A stretch of 64,000 bases of DNA from the NCBI RefSeq assembly GCF_001651855.1, contig NZ_LNQC01000081.1, positions 124,001 to 188,000 of the forward strand, given 5' to 3'. Shown in pieces: positions 5,307 to 48,245 of the stretch. The notes below the pieces were generated by a model, which was given only the letters and a program-made list of their open reading frames with translations, ran no database searches and was not told where the DNA came from. A program made the translations under genes and the position numbers. Within the stretch, counting starts at the first letter, position 1. Each line of letters begins with the position of its first letter. The stretch is from Sinorhizobium americanum (GTDB lineage Bacteria > Pseudomonadota > Alphaproteobacteria > Rhizobiales > Rhizobiaceae).

Positions 5307-6292
5307 GCATCGCCCGGTCATCCCGCCTTGTCGGATTCGGTCATGCCGTGCCGGCGCGATGCGTCGAGAACGCCGAAATCGAAGCGAAACTCGGCCTTGA
5401 ATCCGGCTGGATCGAACGGCGGACGGGCATCCGGGCGCGGCGCTGGGTCGAACCCGGAGATACGCTGACCGGTCTTGCGGCCCGGGCCGGAGAGGCGGCA
5501 CTCGAGGACGCGGCTATCCCACGCGGCGACATCGCCTTGACGCTGCTTGCGACCTCGACGCCCGACCACCTCTTGCCGCCCTCGGCGCCGTTGCTCGCCC
5601 ATCGTCTCGGGCTCGGCAATTCCGGTGCGATTGACCTGGCGGGTGCCTGCTCGGGCTTCCTCTACGCGCTGACGCTTGCCGACGGGTTCGTCCGCGCGCA
5701 GGGCAAGGCGGTCCTCGTCGTTGCCGCCAACATTCTGAGTCGGCGCATCAACCCGGCCGAGAGGGCAAGCGCGGTTCTCTTCGCGGACGCGGCCGGCGCC
5801 GTTGTCGTCGCGCCCTCGGACGATCCGGGGAAGGGCGTGCTCGGCGTCGACCTCGCGGCCGACGGAAGCCGCTACGATCTGATCACGATTCCGGCCGGCG
5901 GCAGCAGCCGGCCCTTCGCACCGGGCATGGCGGCGGAGGACGTGCTGATGACGATGCGCGACGGCCGCGAAGTGTTCGTCCACGCGGTGGAGATGATGAC
6001 GGCGTGCGCAGCTCGCGCGCTCGCCGCTGCGGGCATCGGTCCGTCAGGGGTCAGTCGCTTCGTGCCGCACCAGGCGAATGTCCGGATCTTCGATGCGGTT
6101 TGCGGCAATCTCGGCATCGCCCCGTCCAGAACCGTGCGCACTATCGTGGAGCACGGGAACTCGTCGGCTGCGACCATACCGCTGTCGCTATCACTCGCGC
6201 ACAGGGCGAACGCCTTCCTTCCGGGAGAAAGGCTGCTGCTCACCGCGGCGGGCGCAGGGCTCACCGGAGGGGCAGTGCTCGTCGGTATCTAA
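5303..6292 (+). CDS. bioZ: BioZ, FabH-like ketoacyl-ACP synthase of the biotin operon
   Basis: KAS III-fold protein of 329 residues with a complete Cys-His-Asn triad: C116 in AGACSGFL, H256 in VPHQANVRI and N286 in EHGNSSAA. In rhizobia the fabH-like gene at the end of bioBFDA is bioZ, reported to condense a glutaryl thioester with malonyl-ACP to start pimeloyl-ACP synthesis, replacing the BioC/BioH route. No bioC or bioH is seen here, which fits. The position (ATGA overlap with bioA) rather than sequence alone separates it from the housekeeping FabH. Last gene of the operon. Confidence 0.9.
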
Positions 6293-11010: not shown

Positions 11011-12723
11011 ATGTCCTACAAAATGTCGCGCGCGGCCTATGCCAACATGTTCGGTCCGACCGTGGGCGACAAGGTACGGCTAGCCGATACCGAGCTCTTC
11101 ATCGAGGTCGAGAAGGACTTCACGATCTATGGCGAGGAAGTGAAGTTCGGCGGCGGCAAGGTCATCCGCGACGGCATGGGGCAGAGCCAGGTGACGCGCG
11201 AGGGCGGCGCGGTCGATACGGTCATCACCAATGCGCTGATCGTCGACCACTGGGGCATCGTCAAGGCGGATATCGGCCTGAAGGACGGGCGGGTCGCGGC
11301 AATAGGAAAAGCCGGCAATCCCGACACGCAGTCGGGCGTGAACATCATCGTCGGGCCGGGCACCGAGGCGATCGCCGGCGAGGGCAAGATCGTCACGGCC
11401 GGCGGAATGGACAGCCATATCCACTTCATCTGCCCGCAGCAGATCGAAGAGGCGCTGATGAGCGGGCTCACCTGCATGCTCGGCGGCGGCACGGGGCCGG
11501 CGCACGGCACGCTCGCCACCACCTGCACGCCGGGGCCCTGGCACATCGCGCGGATGATCGAGGCGGCCGATGCGTTCCCGATGAACCTCGCCTTCGCCGG
11601 CAAGGGCAACGCCTCGCTGCCGGGCGCGCTCGTCGAAATGGTGCTCGGCGGTGCCACTTCGCTAAAGCTTCACGAGGACTGGGGTACGACGCCGGGGGCG
11701 ATCGACTGCTGCCTCTCGGTCGCCGACGAATACGACGTGCAGGTGATGATCCACACCGACACGCTGAACGAGAGCGGCTTCGTCGAGGACACGATCGCGG
11801 CGATCAAGGGCCGGACCATCCACGCCTTCCACACGGAAGGGGCGGGTGGCGGCCACGCGCCGGATATCATCAAGATCTGCGGCCAGCCGAACGTCATCCC
11901 GTCGTCGACCAATCCGACGCGGCCATATACTCAGAACACGCTTGCCGAACATCTTGACATGCTGATGGTCTGCCACCACCTGTCCGCGTCCATTCCCGAG
12001 GACATCGCCTTCGCCGAGAGCCGCATCCGCAAGGAGACGATCGCGGCGGAAGACATTCTCCACGATATCGGTGCCTTCTCGATCATCTCCTCCGACAGCC
12101 AGGCCATGGGCCGCGTCGGCGAGGTGGCGATCCGCACCTGGCAGACGGCAGACAAGATGAAGCGCCAGCGCGGCCGGCTGCAGGAGGAGACCGGTGACAA
12201 CGACAATTTCCGCGTCAAGCGCTACGTCGCCAAATACACGATCAACCCGGCGATCGCCCATGGCCTCAGCCATGAGATCGGTTCGCTGGAAGTCGGCAAG
12301 CGCGCCGACCTCGTCATCTGGAACCCGGCCTTTTTCGGCGTGAAGCCGGACATGGTGCTGCTCGGCGGCACGATCGCGGCCGCCCCGATGGGCGACCCGA
12401 ATGCTTCTATCCCGACGCCGCAGCCGGTCCATTACCGGCCGATGTTCGGCGCCTATGGCCGTAGCCGGACGAATTCCTCCGTCACCTTCGTCTCGCAGGC
12501 CTCGCTCGATGCGGGGCTCGCCGGAAGGCTCGGCGTCGCCAAGGAACTCGTCGCCGTCCAGAACACCCGCGGTGGCATCGGCAAGGCGTCGATGATCCAC
12601 AACAGGCTGACGCCGCATATCGAGGTTGATCCGGAAACCTACGAGGTGCGCGCCGACGGCGTGCTGCTGACCTGCGAACCGGCGACGGTGCTGCCGATGG
12701 CGCAGCGGTACTTCCTGTTCTAG
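11011..12723 (+). CDS. ureC: Urease alpha (catalytic) subunit UreC
   Basis: Nickel amidohydrolase that splits urea to ammonia and carbamate. It is 570 residues, the standard length. The nickel-bridging carbamylated lysine is K219 in [10 protein letters not shown]; metal-binding histidines are in SHIHF and in the [10 protein letters not shown] and [13 protein letters not shown] segments; the mobile flap MVCHHLS is present. The ATG at 11011 has AAGGA eleven bases upstream; the longer frame upstream lies in the preceding gene. Central gene of the cluster. Confidence 0.98.
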
Positions 12724-42945: not shown

Positions 42946-43026
42946 GCAGGGCAGGGTGGAGCGGCCCGGCGCTCTCCTCGGGCACACTGAAAATCCATCA
43001 TTATCTCGGGACGGGGTCATCCATTG

Positions 43027-44610
43027 ATGCGCGAATATGTCGTGGCGGTCGATATAGGAACCGGCAGTGCGCGCGCTGGCATCTTCGACCGGAAGGGTGC
43101 GCTTCTTGCGCGTGCCGACCGGGCCATTGCCATGAACCGCCCCGAGGAGAACCATGCCGAGCACGATTCCGAAGATATCTGGGCTGCCGTCTGCGAAGTC
43201 GTGCGGGTGGCGCGCGAGAGGGCAGCAATAGGCGCCGATGGCGTTGCGGCAATCGGCTTCGACGCCACCTGTTCGCTGGTCGTGCGCGACCATGACGGCG
43301 CGCCGCTTTCGGTCAACCGCCGCGGCGAGCCGCGCTGGGACACGATCGTCTGGCTCGACCACCGGGCGCTCGCGGAGGCGGATTTCTGTACGGCGACGGC
43401 CCATCCGGTCCTCGATCATTCGGGTCGGGTGATGTCGCCGGAGATGGAGATGCCGAAGCTGATGTGGCTGAAGAAAAACCTGCCGCATCAGTGGGAGAGG
43501 GCAGGCTATTTCTTCGATCTCGCGGACTACATGTCCTGGCGGGCGACGGGGAGCGCGGCGCGGTCGCGTTGCACGCTGACGGCGAAATGGAACTATCTCG
43601 CGCACAAGGACCGCGGCTGGCAACAGGACTATCTCGAGCGGATCGGTCTCGAAGACCTTCTGACGCGCGGCGGCTTGCCCGAGGAGACGCTGCCGGTTGA
43701 GCGCGCTGTCGGGAAGCTGACGGCGACCGCGGCAGCCGACCTCGGACTCGATACCGAATGCCGGGTCGCGCCGGGCTTGATCGACGCCTATGCCGGCGCG
43801 CTCGGTGTGCTCGGGGGATTCGCCGGCGATACGGCGAAGCTCGAACGTCAACTGGCGCTGATCGCCGGCACGTCGAGCTGCATCGTCGCTTTTTCGAAGG
43901 AGATGAAGCCGGGTTACGGCATGTGGGGACCCTATTTCGAGGCGGTGCTGCCCGGCCTCTGGCTGATCGAGGGCGGCCAATCGGCGACGGGCGCGCTGCT
44001 CGATCATGTCGTGCGGCTGCATGGCGGCGGGCTGGAGCCGACGGCCGAGACCCACAGGAAGATCATCGAGCGCGTCCAGGAATTGCGCGCCGAGCATGGC
44101 GACGGCTTCGCCGACCGGCTGCACGTCCTTCCTGATTTCCACGGCAATCGCTCGCCGCTTGCCGATCCGCATGCGCTCGGCGTGATCAGCGGACTGGCGC
44201 TCGATTCCTCTTTCGACGCGCTTTGCCGCCTCTATTGGCGGACCTGCGTCGCCATCGCGCTCGGCATCCGCCACATCCTCGAGATGATGAAGGAGGCGGG
44301 CTACGACCTCGATACGCTGCATGTGACCGGCGGCCACGTGCGCAATCCCCTATTGATGGAGCTTTACTCCGACGCGACCGGCTGCCGGGTGGTCGTGCCC
44401 GAGGCGCCGGATGCCGTTCTGCTTGGAACGGCCATGGCCGCCGCCGTGGCTGGAAACCTCTATCCGGACCTTGCGCATGCGGGCGGCGCCATGGCCTCGG
44501 CCGGGCAGGAGAGGCGACCGAACCCGGCAAGGCGCGATCTCTACGACCGCGACTATCGGCGCTTGCTGGCGCTCTATCGCCACCGCGCCGAACTGGAATC
44601 GATCGAATAG
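43027..44610 (+). CDS. FGGY-family carbohydrate kinase, probable D-ribulokinase
   Basis: 527 residues. ATPase-fold motifs are VVAVDIGTGSARAGIFD at the N-terminus, the GTSSC segment in the middle and VTGGHVRNPLLMELYSD near the C-terminus. The motif TCSLV in GFDATCSLVVRD is the one reported for the FGGY/YDR109C D-ribulose kinases. D-ribulose could arise from ribitol or D-arabitol through the operon's dehydrogenases; xylulose is the alternative. The ATG at 43027 is preferred to a TTG one codon earlier. A stress-type promoter begins 20 bases after its stop. Confidence 0.88.
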   Translation: MREYVVAVDIGTGSARAGIFDRKGALLARADRAIAMNRPEENHAEHDSEDIWAAVCEVVRVARERAAIGADGVAAIGFDATCSLVVRDHDGAPLSVNRRGEPRWDTIVWLDHRALAEADFCTATAHPVLDHSGRVMSPEMEMPKLMWLKKNLPHQWERAGYFFDLADYMSWRATGSAARSRCTLTAKWNYLAHKDRGWQQDYLERIGLEDLLTRGGLPEETLPVERAVGKLTATAAADLGLDTECRVAPGLIDAYAGALGVLGGFAGDTAKLERQLALIAGTSSCIVAFSKEMKPGYGMWGPYFEAVLPGLWLIEGGQSATGALLDHVVRLHGGGLEPTAETHRKIIERVQELRAEHGDGFADRLHVLPDFHGNRSPLADPHALGVISGLALDSSFDALCRLYWRTCVAIALGIRHILEMMKEAGYDLDTLHVTGGHVRNPLLMELYSDATGCRVVVPEAPDAVLLGTAMAAAVAGNLYPDLAHAGGAMASAGQERRPNPARRDLYDRDYRRLLALYRHRAELESIE

Positions 44611-44630
44611 CTGAAACTTCGCTATTTCGC

Positions 44631-44655
44631 GGAACCTTTTTCTCGCTTGCGCATT
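44631..44655 (+). promoter_or_regulatory. EcfG/RpoE2-type promoter for a candidate small RNA
   Basis: GGAAC (44631-44635), a 16-base T-rich spacer and CATT (44652-44655) fit the rhizobial general-stress consensus GGAAC-N16/17-CGTT except for one base. The GGAACCTTTTT start is the same as in the phyR promoter 1.1 kb away. No protein gene lies downstream on this strand before the terminator at 44757-44794. Confidence 0.6.
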
Positions 44656-44661
44656 ATTGCG

Positions 44662-44794
44662 GATAGCCGAGCGGTGACGCACATCGCCCCCAATGTGACG
44701 TCGGAGGCATACCGCCGGTTGCCAACTCACATCCCCCTCAGTGAGTTGCATAACCTCAGCCAGTGCCCGTCCCTCGGCACTGGCTGTTTTATTT
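44662..44794 (+). ncRNA. Candidate general-stress small RNA with C-rich loops
   Basis: The 5' end is estimated from the EcfG-type promoter. About 133 nt with three hairpins: CACAT/ATGTG (44680-44684 and 44693-44697) with loop CGCCCCCA; CAACTCAC/GTGAGTTG (44723-44730 and 44741-44748), perfect, with loop ATCCCCCTCA; and an 11-bp perfect terminator stem CAGCCAGTGCC/GGCACTGGCTG (44757-44767 and 44776-44786) followed by TTTTATTT. Exposed C-rich loops are typical of trans-acting RNAs that pair with ribosome-binding sites. The plan recalls Caulobacter GsrN, a stress-sigma-dependent RNA with a C-rich loop, but homology is not claimed. Confidence 0.65.
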
Positions 44795-44862
44795 GCAGCG
44801 CCAGGTTCGCGACTGCCAGGATTGAATGGATTGCCTCGGTTCTTCGCCCGCGCACGAGAAAC

Positions 44863-44890
44863 GCCCCGCCAAACTTTGCTTCGGCGGAGC
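44863..44890 (-). terminator. Possible terminator after phyR
   Basis: GCCCCGCC (44863-44870) pairs with GGCGGAGC (44883-44890) with one mismatch; on the minus strand it is followed by GTTTCTC. It begins 20 bases after the phyR stop. Confidence 0.45.
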
Positions 44891-44910
44891 GATTCTCTGA
44901 TCTTTTCTCG

Positions 44911-45705
44911 TCAGGCCGCGGCCTTCGTCGATTCATTGAAGAACAATGCCTGGCTGATCAGCGCCTTGACCATCTCGGGGTTGAAGGGTTTCGTCACCAG
45001 AAATGTCGGCTCGGGCCTCTCGCCGGTCAGCAGCCGCTCGGGGAAAGCCGTGATGAATATGACCGGTACGGTGCTGGTCTTGAGGATTTCGTTGACCGCG
45101 TCGATGCCCGAACTGCCATCGGCGAGCTGAATATCGGCAAGCACCATCCCCGGCTCGGCCGTCTTGTAGAGCGCGATCGCCTCGTCCTTGGTGCGCGCGA
45201 TTCCCGTCACCCGGTGGCCGAGACTTTCCACCATCTGCTCGATGTCGATGGCAATCAGCGGCTCGTCCTCAATGATCATGATGTCGGTCGCCACTTGACG
45301 GGAAATCTCCTGCGAAGCGCGGTCGAGCAACGAGGTGAGCTTGGCGGTGTCGACGTCGAGAACTTCGGCGGCCTCCTGGGGCGTAAAGCCCTCCACGGAG
45401 ACGAGCAGGAAAGCCTGGCGTGCGACCGGGGACACGGCCGCCAGATTGACGGAAGCGCGCTGCTCCCAGGCAAATGGCGAGACCGGTTCGGGGACGAGGA
45501 CAGACGAGGAACCGAACAGCGAGGTGAAGAGACGAAATAGGGCGACCCTGTCGCTGCTGGCCTCGGGGAAAATGGAAGTATCGGCGATCAGCGCTTCAAG
45601 CACCGCCGCGACATAGGCGTCACCGGAGGTCTGAGATCCAGTCAAAGCGCGCGAATAGCGGCGTAGATAGGGAAGAAATGGCGCGATGCGGGTGGACAAT
45701 GTCAT
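44911..45705 (-). CDS. phyR: Anti-anti-sigma response regulator PhyR (RsiB1)
   Basis: 264 residues. The N-terminal sigma-like domain (about 1-135, RIAPFLPYLRRYSRALTGSQ onward, EGFTPQEAAEVLDVD as the region-4-like helix) is fused to a receiver (about 140-255) with MIIEDEPLIAIDIEQM, the phosphorylated aspartate in MVLADIQLADG and the lysine in LVTKPFNP. When phosphorylated, PhyR captures NepR and frees RpoE2. The ATG at 45705 has GAGGGAG upstream; a longer frame to 45792 would run through its own promoter. Divergent from nepR. Confidence 0.96.
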   Translation of the reverse strand: MTLSTRIAPFLPYLRRYSRALTGSQTSGDAYVAAVLEALIADTSIFPEASSDRVALFRLFTSLFGSSSVLVPEPVSPFAWEQRASVNLAAVSPVARQAFLLVSVEGFTPQEAAEVLDVDTAKLTSLLDRASQEISRQVATDIMIIEDEPLIAIDIEQMVESLGHRVTGIARTKDEAIALYKTAEPGMVLADIQLADGSSGIDAVNEILKTSTVPVIFITAFPERLLTGERPEPTFLVTKPFNPEMVKALISQALFFNESTKAAA

Positions 45706-45750
45706 GCAGGACTCCCTCAATCGTGTCTTTTGATCTTGTTCCGCTGCGGA

Positions 45751-45806
45751 AACGTGCCGTGGAAAAAAAGGTTCCGGAATGGAACATTTCATTTTTTTGT
45801 CGCGTT
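45751..45806. promoter_or_regulatory. Back-to-back EcfG promoters between phyR and nepR-rpoE2
   Basis: On the plus strand GGAAC (45781-45785), 17 bases, CGTT (45803-45806). On the minus strand GGAAC (45775-45771), 16 bases, CGTT (45754-45751). The two -35 elements are only five bases apart (GTTCC-GGAAT-GGAAC), so one 15-base stretch serves both directions. Both fit the RpoE2 consensus and indicate autoregulation of the whole module. Confidence 0.88.
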
Positions 45807-45843
45807 ATGTGGCAGGCGAAGTTTCTAGGGCGGCAGTCATACG

Positions 45844-46038
45844 ATGAGATATAATTCAGGGGCAGGGCGGACGGTCAGCATGCGTCCGAAGTCTGACGAT
45901 CCGAATGCGCAGATCGCGGCGAAGCTCAAAGCGCTTTATCTTTCGGTGCAGGAGGAGGGAATTCCGGCTCGCTTCCTTGATCTTCTGGAAAAACTCGAGG
46001 CCGTGGAACAACGATCCGTGCTGGATGGCAAGGAGTGA
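45844..46038 (+). CDS. nepR: Anti-sigma factor NepR (RsiA1)
   Basis: 64 residues. The NepR core IAAKLKALYLSVQEEGIPARFLDLLEKLEAV is present (key part EGIPARFLDLLEKLE). It holds RpoE2 inactive until phosphorylated PhyR takes it away. The ATG at 45844 is given; a second in-frame ATG at 45880 would yield a 52-residue protein that still has the core. The stop is eight bases before the rpoE2 ATG. Confidence 0.93.
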   Translation: MRYNSGAGRTVSMRPKSDDPNAQIAAKLKALYLSVQEEGIPARFLDLLEKLEAVEQRSVLDGKE

Positions 46039-46046
46039 ACGCCGGA

Positions 46047-46598
46047 ATGTCCGAAAATCAAGAGTTCAAGCGTGAGATGCTTGCGGCGTTGCCGAGCCTC
46101 CGCGCTTTTGCAATGTCGCTGATCGGCCGCCACGACCGGGCCGACGATCTGGTGCAGGACACCATCATGAAGGCTTGGGCCAAGCAGGACCACTTCGAGA
46201 TGGGCACCAATATGAAAGCCTGGCTCTTCACGATCCTGCGCAACGAACTCTATAGCCAAATGCGCAAGCGCGGCCGCGAGATCCAGGACAGCGACGGTCA
46301 TTTCACGGAAACGCTGGCGCACCATCCGGAGCAATACGGATCGCTCGACCTGCAGGACTTCCGCCGTGCCCTCGATCAGTTGCCGCCGGATCAGCGCGAA
46401 GCGATTATTCTCGTCGGCGCTTCGGGCTTCTCTTACGAAGAGGCTGCGACGATCTGCGGTTGCGCGCTCGGCACGATCAAGAGCCGCGTCAACCGCGCAC
46501 GCCAGCGCCTCCAGGAGATTCTCCAGATCAAGGGCGAGAACGACTATGGGCCGGATGAAACCTCGGCGCCCATCACCTCGCGCGCTTTCGTGTCCTGA
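46047..46598 (+). CDS. rpoE2: ECF sigma factor RpoE2 (EcfG, general stress response)
   Basis: 183 residues. Region 2 spans DRADDLVQDTIMKAWAKQDHF with MKAWLFTILRNELYSQMRK; region 4 has LPPDQREAIILVGASGFSYEEAA and CALGTIKSRVNRARQRL. EcfG-type sigma factors switch on the alphaproteobacterial general stress regulon. The ATG at 46047 has AAGGAG eleven bases upstream; a GTG at 46035 overlaps that site and is unlikely. Co-transcribed with nepR. Confidence 0.95.
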   Translation: MSENQEFKREMLAALPSLRAFAMSLIGRHDRADDLVQDTIMKAWAKQDHFEMGTNMKAWLFTILRNELYSQMRKRGREIQDSDGHFTETLAHHPEQYGSLDLQDFRRALDQLPPDQREAIILVGASGFSYEEAATICGCALGTIKSRVNRARQRLQEILQIKGENDYGPDETSAPITSRAFVS

Positions 46599-46745
46599 CA
46601 AATCCTCATCGCCTTCGACCCTTCCTTCCTTATTTCTGCTTTGCTATGCGCGTTTACTCGGAGCAAGGATTGCGGCAGTCTCTTGAATTGCCGCATAATT
46701 CCCAATCGGTCTTGCCGGCGGGAGCGGGATTGGAGTTCGGGCCGA

Positions 46746-48245
46746 ATGCACGAGAGGGCAGAAGCAATGCTTCCCGCAGTGGCTGAGACACTTGGTTCGC
46801 GTGAGCGCCTCAGTGTCCTGCATGCGGCCGCACCGGACATGACGGTCGCCGACAGCGACTTCGAACCGCTGGCCAGGCTCGCCGCCAGCCTGTTCGACGC
46901 GCCGATCGCCCTCGTCACCCTCGTCGATCACGAATGGGAATGGTTCAAGGCGGCTGTCGGGACGACGGAGACGCGGACACGAACCGAGGAGTCCTTCTGC
47001 GCCCACGCGATCGGCGATCGCGGCCCGTTTCTCGTGCTCGATGCGTCGGCGCACCCGGTCTTGCGGCACAACCGAAAGGTCGCGCAAGCGCCATTCCTGC
47101 GTTTCTATGCGGGGGCACCGATCGTTCTCGGAGGGCAGGCGGTGGGCACCGTCTGCGTGCTGGATGGAACACCCCGCGCCGAAATTGCGGCGAAACAGCT
47201 CGATGCCTTGCAGGAGATCGCGGATGCCGCCGCCTCGCTCCTCAAGCTGAAGGACGAGGCGCGTCGGCGTGCGCTGAAGGAGGCGGCGCTGTCGCGCGAG
47301 GAACAACGGCTCGGCATGGCGCTCGACGCCGCCAATGTCGGTAGCTGGCTCTGGGATATTCGCTCCGGTACCGTTGCGGGCAACGGCGCGATGATGCGCA
47401 TGTTCGGGCTGCCGCCGGAACGGACCCTGAGCGCCAAGGCCGTCTTCGGCGCGATCCATCCGGACGACCGAGGTGCAACCTTCGCGAAGCTCAGGCAGGC
47501 GATGGCCGCCAACGAGGAATATGACGGCATGTTCCGGATTCGGGCGAACGGGCGCTGGCTGCTCGGCCGCGGCCGGGTGCACGATCGCGACAGTAGAGGT
47601 CTGGCGCTGACCTTTCTCGGCATGACCATCGACGTCTCCGAACAGCAGGCGTCCGTGCAGCGGACGAGGCTGCTGCTGAAGGAATTGAACCACCGGGTCA
47701 AGAACACTTTGGCAATGCTGCAATCGCTGGCGCGCCAGACCCTTCGCCAGACGAGCGACCCGGCCGAGTTCATGACCGCCTTCGCGGGTCGGCTACAGGC
47801 GATCTCCGAGGCGCATGGGCTGCTTTCGGACTATGAATGGGGGACGATCCGCCTTGCGGAGCTGATTTCCAAGCAGCTGAAACCCTATGTCAGCGACTAT
47901 GCCGAGCAGGTGGAAATCCACAAGGACGAAGTCCTGCTCGGACCGGACCAGGCGGTTGGTCTCGGCCTGGTGCTGCACGAGTTGGCGACCAATGCCGTGA
48001 AATACGGGTCGCTCTCCGTACCGAAAGGCAAGATCGTGCTGACGGCGCGCAGCGTCGTCGAGGAAGGCAGTGCCGTGCTGCATTTGACCTGGACGGAAGT
48101 CGGCGGACCGCCGGTCCGGGAACCGCGCCGGCGCGGCTTCGGCTCGCTGCTGATCGAGCGGAGCCTCGACAAGATCATCGGCAGTTCCGTAAAGGTCGAG
48201 TATCTGCCCGCCGGCGTTACCGCGCTGATCCGCCTGCCGCTCTGA
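46746..48245 (+). CDS. HWE-family sensor histidine kinase with GAF and PAS domains
   Basis: About 499 residues. A GAF-like domain covers about 25-155 (FDAPIALVTLVDHEWEWFKA then SFCAHAI), a PAS domain about 185-300 (LDAANVGSWLWDIRSGTVAGN onward), then the HWE kinase core with H316 in LKELNHRVKNTLAML and N-box LVLHELATNAVKYGSL, and a C-terminal RGFGSLLIERSL. No membrane helix, so cytosolic. HWE/HisKA2 kinases phosphorylate PhyR in other alphaproteobacteria, and its place next to rpoE2 supports that. A 7-bp hairpin (46671-46695) separates it from rpoE2; an ATG at 46767 is another possible start. Confidence 0.88.
   Translation: MHERAEAMLPAVAETLGSRERLSVLHAAAPDMTVADSDFEPLARLAASLFDAPIALVTLVDHEWEWFKAAVGTTETRTRTEESFCAHAIGDRGPFLVLDASAHPVLRHNRKVAQAPFLRFYAGAPIVLGGQAVGTVCVLDGTPRAEIAAKQLDALQEIADAAASLLKLKDEARRRALKEAALSREEQRLGMALDAANVGSWLWDIRSGTVAGNGAMMRMFGLPPERTLSAKAVFGAIHPDDRGATFAKLRQAMAANEEYDGMFRIRANGRWLLGRGRVHDRDSRGLALTFLGMTIDVSEQQASVQRTRLLLKELNHRVKNTLAMLQSLARQTLRQTSDPAEFMTAFAGRLQAISEAHGLLSDYEWGTIRLAELISKQLKPYVSDYAEQVEIHKDEVLLGPDQAVGLGLVLHELATNAVKYGSLSVPKGKIVLTARSVVEEGSAVLHLTWTEVGGPPVREPRRRGFGSLLIERSLDKIIGSSVKVEYLPAGVTALIRLPL

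Follow-up and report, generated by a model that had tools for sequence, protein, structure and literature searches.

The Predicted Small RNA and Its Promoter

The stretch of Sinorhizobium americanum DNA analyzed here, 64,000 nucleotides of contig NZ_LNQC01000081.1 (the window), includes the stress genes phyR, nepR, and ecfG, and in the 300-base intergenic gap between a gene for an FGGY kinase and the convergent phyR lies a predicted small RNA of about 127–130 nt (44662–44790, +), its 3′ end placed by a terminator and its exact 5′ end presumed from promoter spacing. The promoter is of the EcfG/RpoE2 type, GGAAC-N16-CATT (44631–44655, +), with GGAAC at 44631–44635, 20 bases past the kinase stop, and CATT at 44652–44655, precisely as described in an earlier sequence-only reading, which had proposed a stress-sigma-dependent RNA at this site; the box is kept in homologues. 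Boxes of the form GGAAC-N16/17-CRTT occur five times in the window against 1.68 expected, a count reached by 3 of 100 shuffles, and the box alone is therefore weak evidence; three of the five are those of the small RNA, of phyR, and of nepR-ecfG. No sigma-70-like promoter was found in a search of 44500–46100.

The predicted fold has a minimum free energy of −56.4 kcal/mol, compared with −36.2 ± 3.8 for shuffled sequences (z −5.4; 0 of 200 as good), and agrees with the three hairpins, two C-rich loops, and 11-bp terminator stem originally noted. Hairpin 1 (44664–44721, +), with an outer and an apical stem that show compensatory changes in relatives, presents C-rich loop 1, CGCCCCCA (44685–44692, +), which is nearly invariant among the 36 aligned RNAs of alignment A1 described below. 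Hairpin 2 (44723–44748, +) presents C-rich loop 2, ATCCCCCTCA (44731–44740, +), and both loops are mostly to fully unpaired in the ensemble. The intrinsic terminator (44757–44794, +) consists of the 11-bp stem at 44757–44786 with a C-rich loop, followed by TTTTATTT. The element had been described as about 130 nt without a coding frame; one frame is in fact free of stops throughout, but homologues differ by one-base indels, and a coding role is thus very unlikely.

The small RNA follows a cluster of genes for mannitol dehydrogenase, a HAD hydrolase, and an FGGY-family carbohydrate kinase (43024–44610, +); the kinase closes the cluster, with its stop at 44610. On its other side, phyR (rsiB1; 44911–45792, −) has a strong terminator-like hairpin at 44862–44891 (−) and is preceded by an EcfG-type promoter (45751–45775, −) that falls inside the longest phyR frame, so that the true phyR start probably lies downstream of it. 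A further EcfG-type promoter (45781–45806, +) precedes nepR (rsiA1; 45844–46038, +), which encodes the anti-sigma factor, and ecfG (rpoE2; 46035–46598, +), which encodes the ECF sigma factor; these are followed by a gene for an HWE histidine kinase with GAF and PAS domains (46641–48245, +). The two divergent promoters are 5 bases apart (45751–45806) and are arranged around a GTTCCGGAATGGAAC inverted repeat.

Conservation of Place and Promoter

BLASTN homologues were found in 32 of 33 Sinorhizobium genomes, the single miss being a genome that is 70% complete, and, in a sample of 297 genomes from across the Rhizobiaceae, in 19 belonging to 6 genera. A hairpin-2 pattern run over species genomes returned 51 stretches, of which three had none of the neighboring genes and were taken as chance. 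The remaining 48 were rhizobial, belonging to Sinorhizobium, Ensifer, Rhizobium, Xaviernesmea, Ferranicluibacter, and further Rhizobiales isolates; PhyR was present in the fetched stretch at 42 of these loci, and the other six stretches end before PhyR and hold the FGGY kinase and/or the histidine kinase. The order in Sinorhizobium and Ensifer is kinase, RNA, phyR, and that in Rhizobium-like loci is kinase, RNA, histidine kinase, phyR; the slot lies at the tail of phyR or, where a histidine kinase follows phyR, at the tail of that kinase. With homology judged by covariance model or BLASTN in combination with synteny, homologues are held by 14 Rhizobiaceae genera (our labels g1, g4, g10, g12, g30, g31, g54, g57, g71, g75, g92, g94, g103, and g106), synteny in g4, g10, g71, and g103 having been read from named genomes with identical RNA sequence.

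The promoter was surveyed in 95 homologous loci, drawn partly from the same genomes in two collections. The hairpin-2 pattern matched in 94 of them, and GGAAC stood upstream in 93 of those 94 (locus L085 is truncated by the end of its stretch). Among the 93 loci with GGAAC, the −10 element was CGTT in 43, CATT in 39, GATT in one, and neither in 10. The one-base departure from consensus remarked upon in the sequence-only reading is present here as CATT; it is no peculiarity of this copy, since CATT, while off the EcfG consensus, is common for this RNA.

Covariance Model and Compensatory Change

Forty-eight distinct RNAs were gathered with a pattern requiring GGAAC, which 5 of the 95 loci failed, and 36 of these, chosen for spread, constitute alignment A1. 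The covariance model built on it, R1, has 129 positions and 24 pairs and excludes the promoter. Across 394 Rhizobiaceae genomes R1 gave a match at E ≤ 0.001 in 67, not all of them true. Forty stretches were fetched from family- and order-level matches, mainly the weaker ones, and phyR lay beside the match in 21 and was absent from 19. Syntenic matches scored 32.2 to 110.2 bits and non-syntenic matches up to 33.9, and because these ranges overlap it is synteny, not score, that decides below about 35 bits. GGAAC was present upstream of all 21 syntenic matches and of none of the 12 non-syntenic ones whose upstream sequence was inspected. A second class of matches, 82–92 nt long and found in several genomes, was rejected as coding sequence: by eye these share a ...HAFSWHWLF... 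frame, stress genes are absent, and GGAAC is absent from the six with upstream inspected. At order level, 13 of 297 genomes had a match at E ≤ 0.01, four of them Rhizobiaceae; the nine outside that family were not accepted, as their stretches contain no match to PhyR, NepR, or EcfG (one, L167, is a 7-kb contig). Three stretches of family f2 (L168, L169, and L170, about 5970–6131) hold a C-rich-loop hairpin RNA candidate with a strong terminator hairpin, scoring 29–32 bits with R1; their stretches show no match to phyR, and the upstream sequence inspected lacks GGAAC.

A covariance search with a check for compensatory change had been proposed as a test in the sequence-only reading, and two groups of relatives now supply such changes. 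In alignment A3 (Rhizobium-like, 14 sequences), 93.5% of cells pair and both sides have changed in 7 of 35 pairs, against 3.0 ± 0.9 in shuffles (0 of 500 reach 7). In alignment A4 (Shinella-like, 10 sequences, three of them trimmed on the 5′ side), 90.5% of cells pair and both sides have again changed in 7 of 35 pairs, against 3.3 ± 1.1 (1 of 500 reaches 7). Sliding the partners cuts pairing to 27–38% in both, a control flattered by the fact that the structures came from the members' own folds. Pairing is not uniform: only 78.6% of cells pair in the A3 outer stem, and 83% in hairpin 2 of A4. In A1, substantial variation is confined to the apical stem of hairpin 1; both sides have changed in 2 of 24 pairs, a number that 105 of 500 shuffles equal, and such changes occupy 13 cells versus 3.7. 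Between groups, hairpin 2 has been rewritten, CAACTCAC/GTGAGTTG contrasting with a CCACG...CGTGG stem with an inner ACCG/CGGT, and its C-run and following UC are kept despite this; in Shinella-like genera, too, the rewritten stem still carries a C-rich loop. The C-rich loops thus persist while stems covary or are rewritten, and the GGAAC box is kept.

Stress Loci Beyond the Model

PhyR was found at E ≤ 1e-60 in 91 of 111 Rhizobiaceae genomes. Forty phyR loci with no accepted R1 match were fetched and scanned with a caller demanding promoter, terminator, and C4 loop, which was positive in eight, always on the opposite strand to phyR and 1.3–1.9 kb beyond the end of that gene. One of the eight, L195, appears weak by eye yet scores 24.8 bits with R1. 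Three further loci (L193, L196, and L201) were added by eye, L196 having no clear terminator, and at most of the remaining loci among the 40 nothing similar was seen by caller or eye. On controls, 25 stretches that had been fetched for other reasons and form no designed sample, the caller gave one match in 677 kb of strand-sequence.

Outside the Rhizobiaceae survey, PhyR was present at E ≤ 1e-45 in 30 of 192 genomes of the class, the source genome included. A laxer caller, accepting a CCC loop, was applied to 20 loci from the other 29 genomes and gave six matches in 417 kb versus one in controls; these fall in four families, with two pairs sharing a genus. Short C-rich-loop hairpin RNAs behind GGAAC-type boxes are seen at L238, L243, L247, L245, and L248, with L243/L247 and L245/L248 forming pairs that carry much the same element, and L236 has a similar RNA by eye that the caller missed. 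Among all of these loci R1 recognizes only L195 and, weakly, L232; the latter is the one slot match in the 20 non-Rhizobiaceae loci (19.7 bits, E 0.0009), and the model gives no match at their other C-loop RNAs. The architecture and its place therefore recur beyond model R1, which does not imply common ancestry. Behind phyR at L194, L199, L203, and L204, a GGAAC-type box precedes a small gene whose product starts MNWNQIEGNW or alike, which we take to be CsbD-like.

Published Relatives

SmelC601 (SMc06778) of S. meliloti is a chromosomal trans-sRNA of 127 nt on the minus strand; it has an RpoE2 promoter, and its synteny is largely preserved across Sinorhizobium (PMC7143759; PMC3927594). In strain 1021 it occupies 2625313–2625439 (−), again listed with RpoE2, and RcsR1, the trpE leader RNA, occupies 2575832–2575947 (−) (PMC7143759), coordinates that put 49,492 bases between the two 5′ ends. 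In five Sinorhizobium genomes, including S. meliloti Ak57, the small RNA described here lies 45,606, 45,615, 45,986, 47,821, and 51,943 bases from the start of trpL, in the order and strand of SmelC601 and RcsR1 and at a distance that is not identical; two other stretches (L033 from genome G032 and L191 from G010) contain no trpL and hence gave no distance, and a near-equal coordinate in G032 was set aside as a possible coincidence. The Ak57 homologue (L002) has 91% identity over 72% of the query and is itself a row of the R1 alignment, so its model score is not independent. In the 10-kb Ak57 stretch, besides the nepR-ecfG promoter, the only GGAAC-N16/17-CRTT site on that strand is that of the small RNA. 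Given this uniqueness, together with order and strand, SmelC601 is taken as this RNA, of which it is in all likelihood the orthologue; the two agree in length, strand, RpoE2-type promoter, and position between the FGGY kinase and rsiB1, and roughly in their distance from RcsR1/trpL. The SmelC601 family has been published for S. meliloti, S. medicae, and S. fredii, a range extended by the 14 genera found here. The impact of the RpoE2-activated small RNAs of S. meliloti was stated to be unknown in 2018 (PMC6180224).

In Rhizobium etli, the non-coding RNA ReC64 lies behind tcrY and has a mapped 5′ end and an EcfG consensus promoter, and its reporter expression is abolished in ecfG1 mutants (PMC3892343); it is also raised by salt (PMC4167512). 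ReC64 shares the EcfG promoter and the tail slot, with phyR and histidine kinase, of the Rhizobium-like homologues; Sinorhizobium, unlike it, has no histidine kinase between RNA and phyR. Transcription and EcfG dependence are thus published for ReC64, and catalogued expression and an RpoE2 promoter for SmelC601. These data, with the conserved promoter and compensatory stems, uphold the proposal of a stress-sigma-dependent RNA beside its own sigma-factor genes.

GsrN of Caulobacter crescentus likewise combines stress-sigma dependence, a C-rich loop in a 5′ hairpin, and a terminator hairpin, and in other Caulobacteraceae it adjoins the stress locus (PMC5869019), as the small RNA here adjoins phyR; the latter differs in having two C-rich hairpins before its terminator. 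GsrN acts by pairing of its C-loop to katG mRNA, and loop 1 (GCCCCCA) resembles the GsrN seed in composition. Stabilization by Hfq and processing to a stable 5′ half are further traits of GsrN function. On the basis of expression, position, and promoter, Tien et al. (2018) predicted GsrN-like RNAs in S. meliloti, R. etli, and Brucella, and a BLASTN search starting from R. etli added Agrobacterium (PMC5869019); the features they used, an EcfG-type promoter, proximity to phyR/ecfG, and a C-rich loop in the 5′ hairpin, are all found here, and the S. meliloti RNA they refer to is, judging from its locus, presumably this one. BLASTN matches to GsrN itself were reported only in Caulobacteraceae (PMC5869019), and the initial caution that homology to GsrN had not been demonstrated still applies, R1 having given one weak slot match (L232) in 20 loci. 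In Brucella abortus, the small RNA Bsr6 requires the general-stress sigma factor RpoE1 and has an RpoE1 box in its promoter (PMC12772402), and can be likened to this RNA in those two respects from descriptions alone. A literature search that was thin on subscription journals found no functional study of this RNA, and passages from two Bradyrhizobium papers contained no phyR-linked RNA.

Search for Targets

Ten-mers antisense to loop 1 occur at 19 sites in the source genome, one of them this RNA and most of them within mechanical frames, against four for a reversed control; those antisense to loop 2 occur at seven, one again being this RNA, against three. Three exact 10-base loop complements lie at plausible starts, belonging to a gene that we take from its protein start to be rplO (L273 around 1500, −), an MFS transporter (Pfam PF07690; L253 around 1500, −), and a 428-codon frame (L272). 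The ribosome-binding site of rplO, TGAGGGGGAT, is exactly complementary to loop 2; it is kept in 28 of the 29 readable among 30 genus loci, whatever the sequence of loop 2, and since it therefore does not coevolve with the loop, rplO was rejected as a target. Immediately upstream of the ATG of the transporter gene, 11 bases are complementary to loop 1. Four of the 33 genus genomes have this gene region, and of these only the source genome has the complete site, which differs by one base in the nearest relative; as none of the other three keeps it in full, the transporter too was rejected. In the leaders of katG, phyR, nepR, ecfG, and the kinase, loop matches are at chance level; the katG leader here has no G4 run and offers only a 7-base match, equaled by 55 of 200 shuffles, with pairing still possible. 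The suggestion that the loops pair with G-rich ribosome-binding sites is thus so far unsupported, two of the three start-site matches having been checked and found not maintained and the leaders being at chance.

Interpretation and Alternatives

We consider the element, with a probability of roughly 0.8, to be a small regulatory RNA that acts in trans within the general stress response. Such an RNA is very probably real, belongs to an ordinary class of mechanism, and has orthologues already known or predicted; what is new is the covariation, the rewriting of stems around kept loops, the range of Rhizobiaceae covered, and the connection drawn among SmelC601, ReC64, and the GsrN proposal. In the mechanism envisaged, PhyR would release EcfG (RpoE2) from NepR, EcfG would transcribe the small RNA from the promoter at 44631, and transcription would end at the hairpin at 44757–44786. 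With its two stable hairpins presenting C-rich loops as preformed seeds, the RNA would most likely pair with G-rich segments of target mRNAs, probably assisted by Hfq, and so alter the translation or stability of those mRNAs; loop 2 (CCCCCUC) could face G-rich Shine-Dalgarno sequences.

Several points weigh against this reading. The promoter, predicted structure, terminator, conservation, compensatory change, and synteny are read from sequence, and expression of the S. americanum copy is presumed. Further pair types are not above those in shuffles (163 of 500 as high for A3, 495 of 500 for A4), and A1 shows hardly any variation in hairpin 2 or the terminator. The identification with SmelC601 comes from coordinates, and SmelC601 is not named among the eight intergenic small RNA regions with array support in the accessible part of an rpoE2 overexpression study (PMC3616915), where it may appear under another name. 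The kinship of ReC64 is suggested by its slot; it measures 88 nt by Northern blot, with an unexplained larger band also reported, versus roughly 120–125 nt predicted for relatives of that gene order, and SigA and RpoH boxes, not EcfG, have been predicted for it (PMC4167512). No mRNA target was supported by the loop-complement searches in the source genome and by genus conservation.

That last result would suit an RNA that uses its C-rich loops to capture a protein or a different small RNA instead of mRNAs, as would the retention of a similar C-run in two or three loops through the rewriting of the stems. Such a sponge is improbable, as GsrN, the most similar characterized RNA, pairs its C-loop to an mRNA, and no sign of a C-binding protein appeared in the data examined. 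It is just as doubtful that the element acts solely in cis at the tail of phyR, limiting read-through or serving as antisense to the phyR 3′ untranslated region (UTR), with no trans targets. At the loci examined the RNA does converge tail-to-tail on phyR or on the histidine kinase that follows phyR; however, which gene it faces depends on the lineage, no part of the RNA falls within the phyR frame, a separate terminator-like hairpin serves phyR, and high conservation in unpaired C-rich loops suits pairing in trans. That the hairpins are instead the 3′ UTR and terminator of the FGGY kinase operon, possibly with an incidental promoter, would fit an RNA located 20–180 bases past the kinase stop on the same strand, with a strong terminator and with the kinase preceding it in Sinorhizobium and many Rhizobium-like loci, but is very improbable, because at nine syntenic loci (L148–L151, L177–L180, and L184) the fetched 12 kb contains no match to the FGGY kinase, yet the RNA and GGAAC are retained beside histidine kinase and phyR, and for ReC64, which occupies that slot, a separate start has been mapped.

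Diagrams of the alphaproteobacterial stress response usually show three proteins. A tentative and rather doubtful possibility is that this switch has an ancient fourth core component, a C-loop small RNA (PhyR-NepR-EcfG-sRNA), in which the stems are freely rewritten and only stress promoter, C-rich loops, and terminator are held, whether as one lineage bound to the locus or through repeated reinvention in the same slot. If so, the RNA would broadly brake or tune the mRNAs whose leaders are G-rich. Should many rhizobial stress loci carry a C-loop RNA of their own, post-transcriptional control would be built into the switch, and part of what is known of rpoE2, phyR, or ecfG mutant phenotypes may be due to the RNA.

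The site of the small RNA has no Rfam 15 family at gathering score, lax settings giving only E ≥ 0.25, and pipelines that annotate from Rfam will therefore miss it; the alignments described here give a usable model. The sole Rfam family in the window at gathering score is RF02514, the 5′ ureB small RNA, at 11163–11452 (−), with 107.2 bits.
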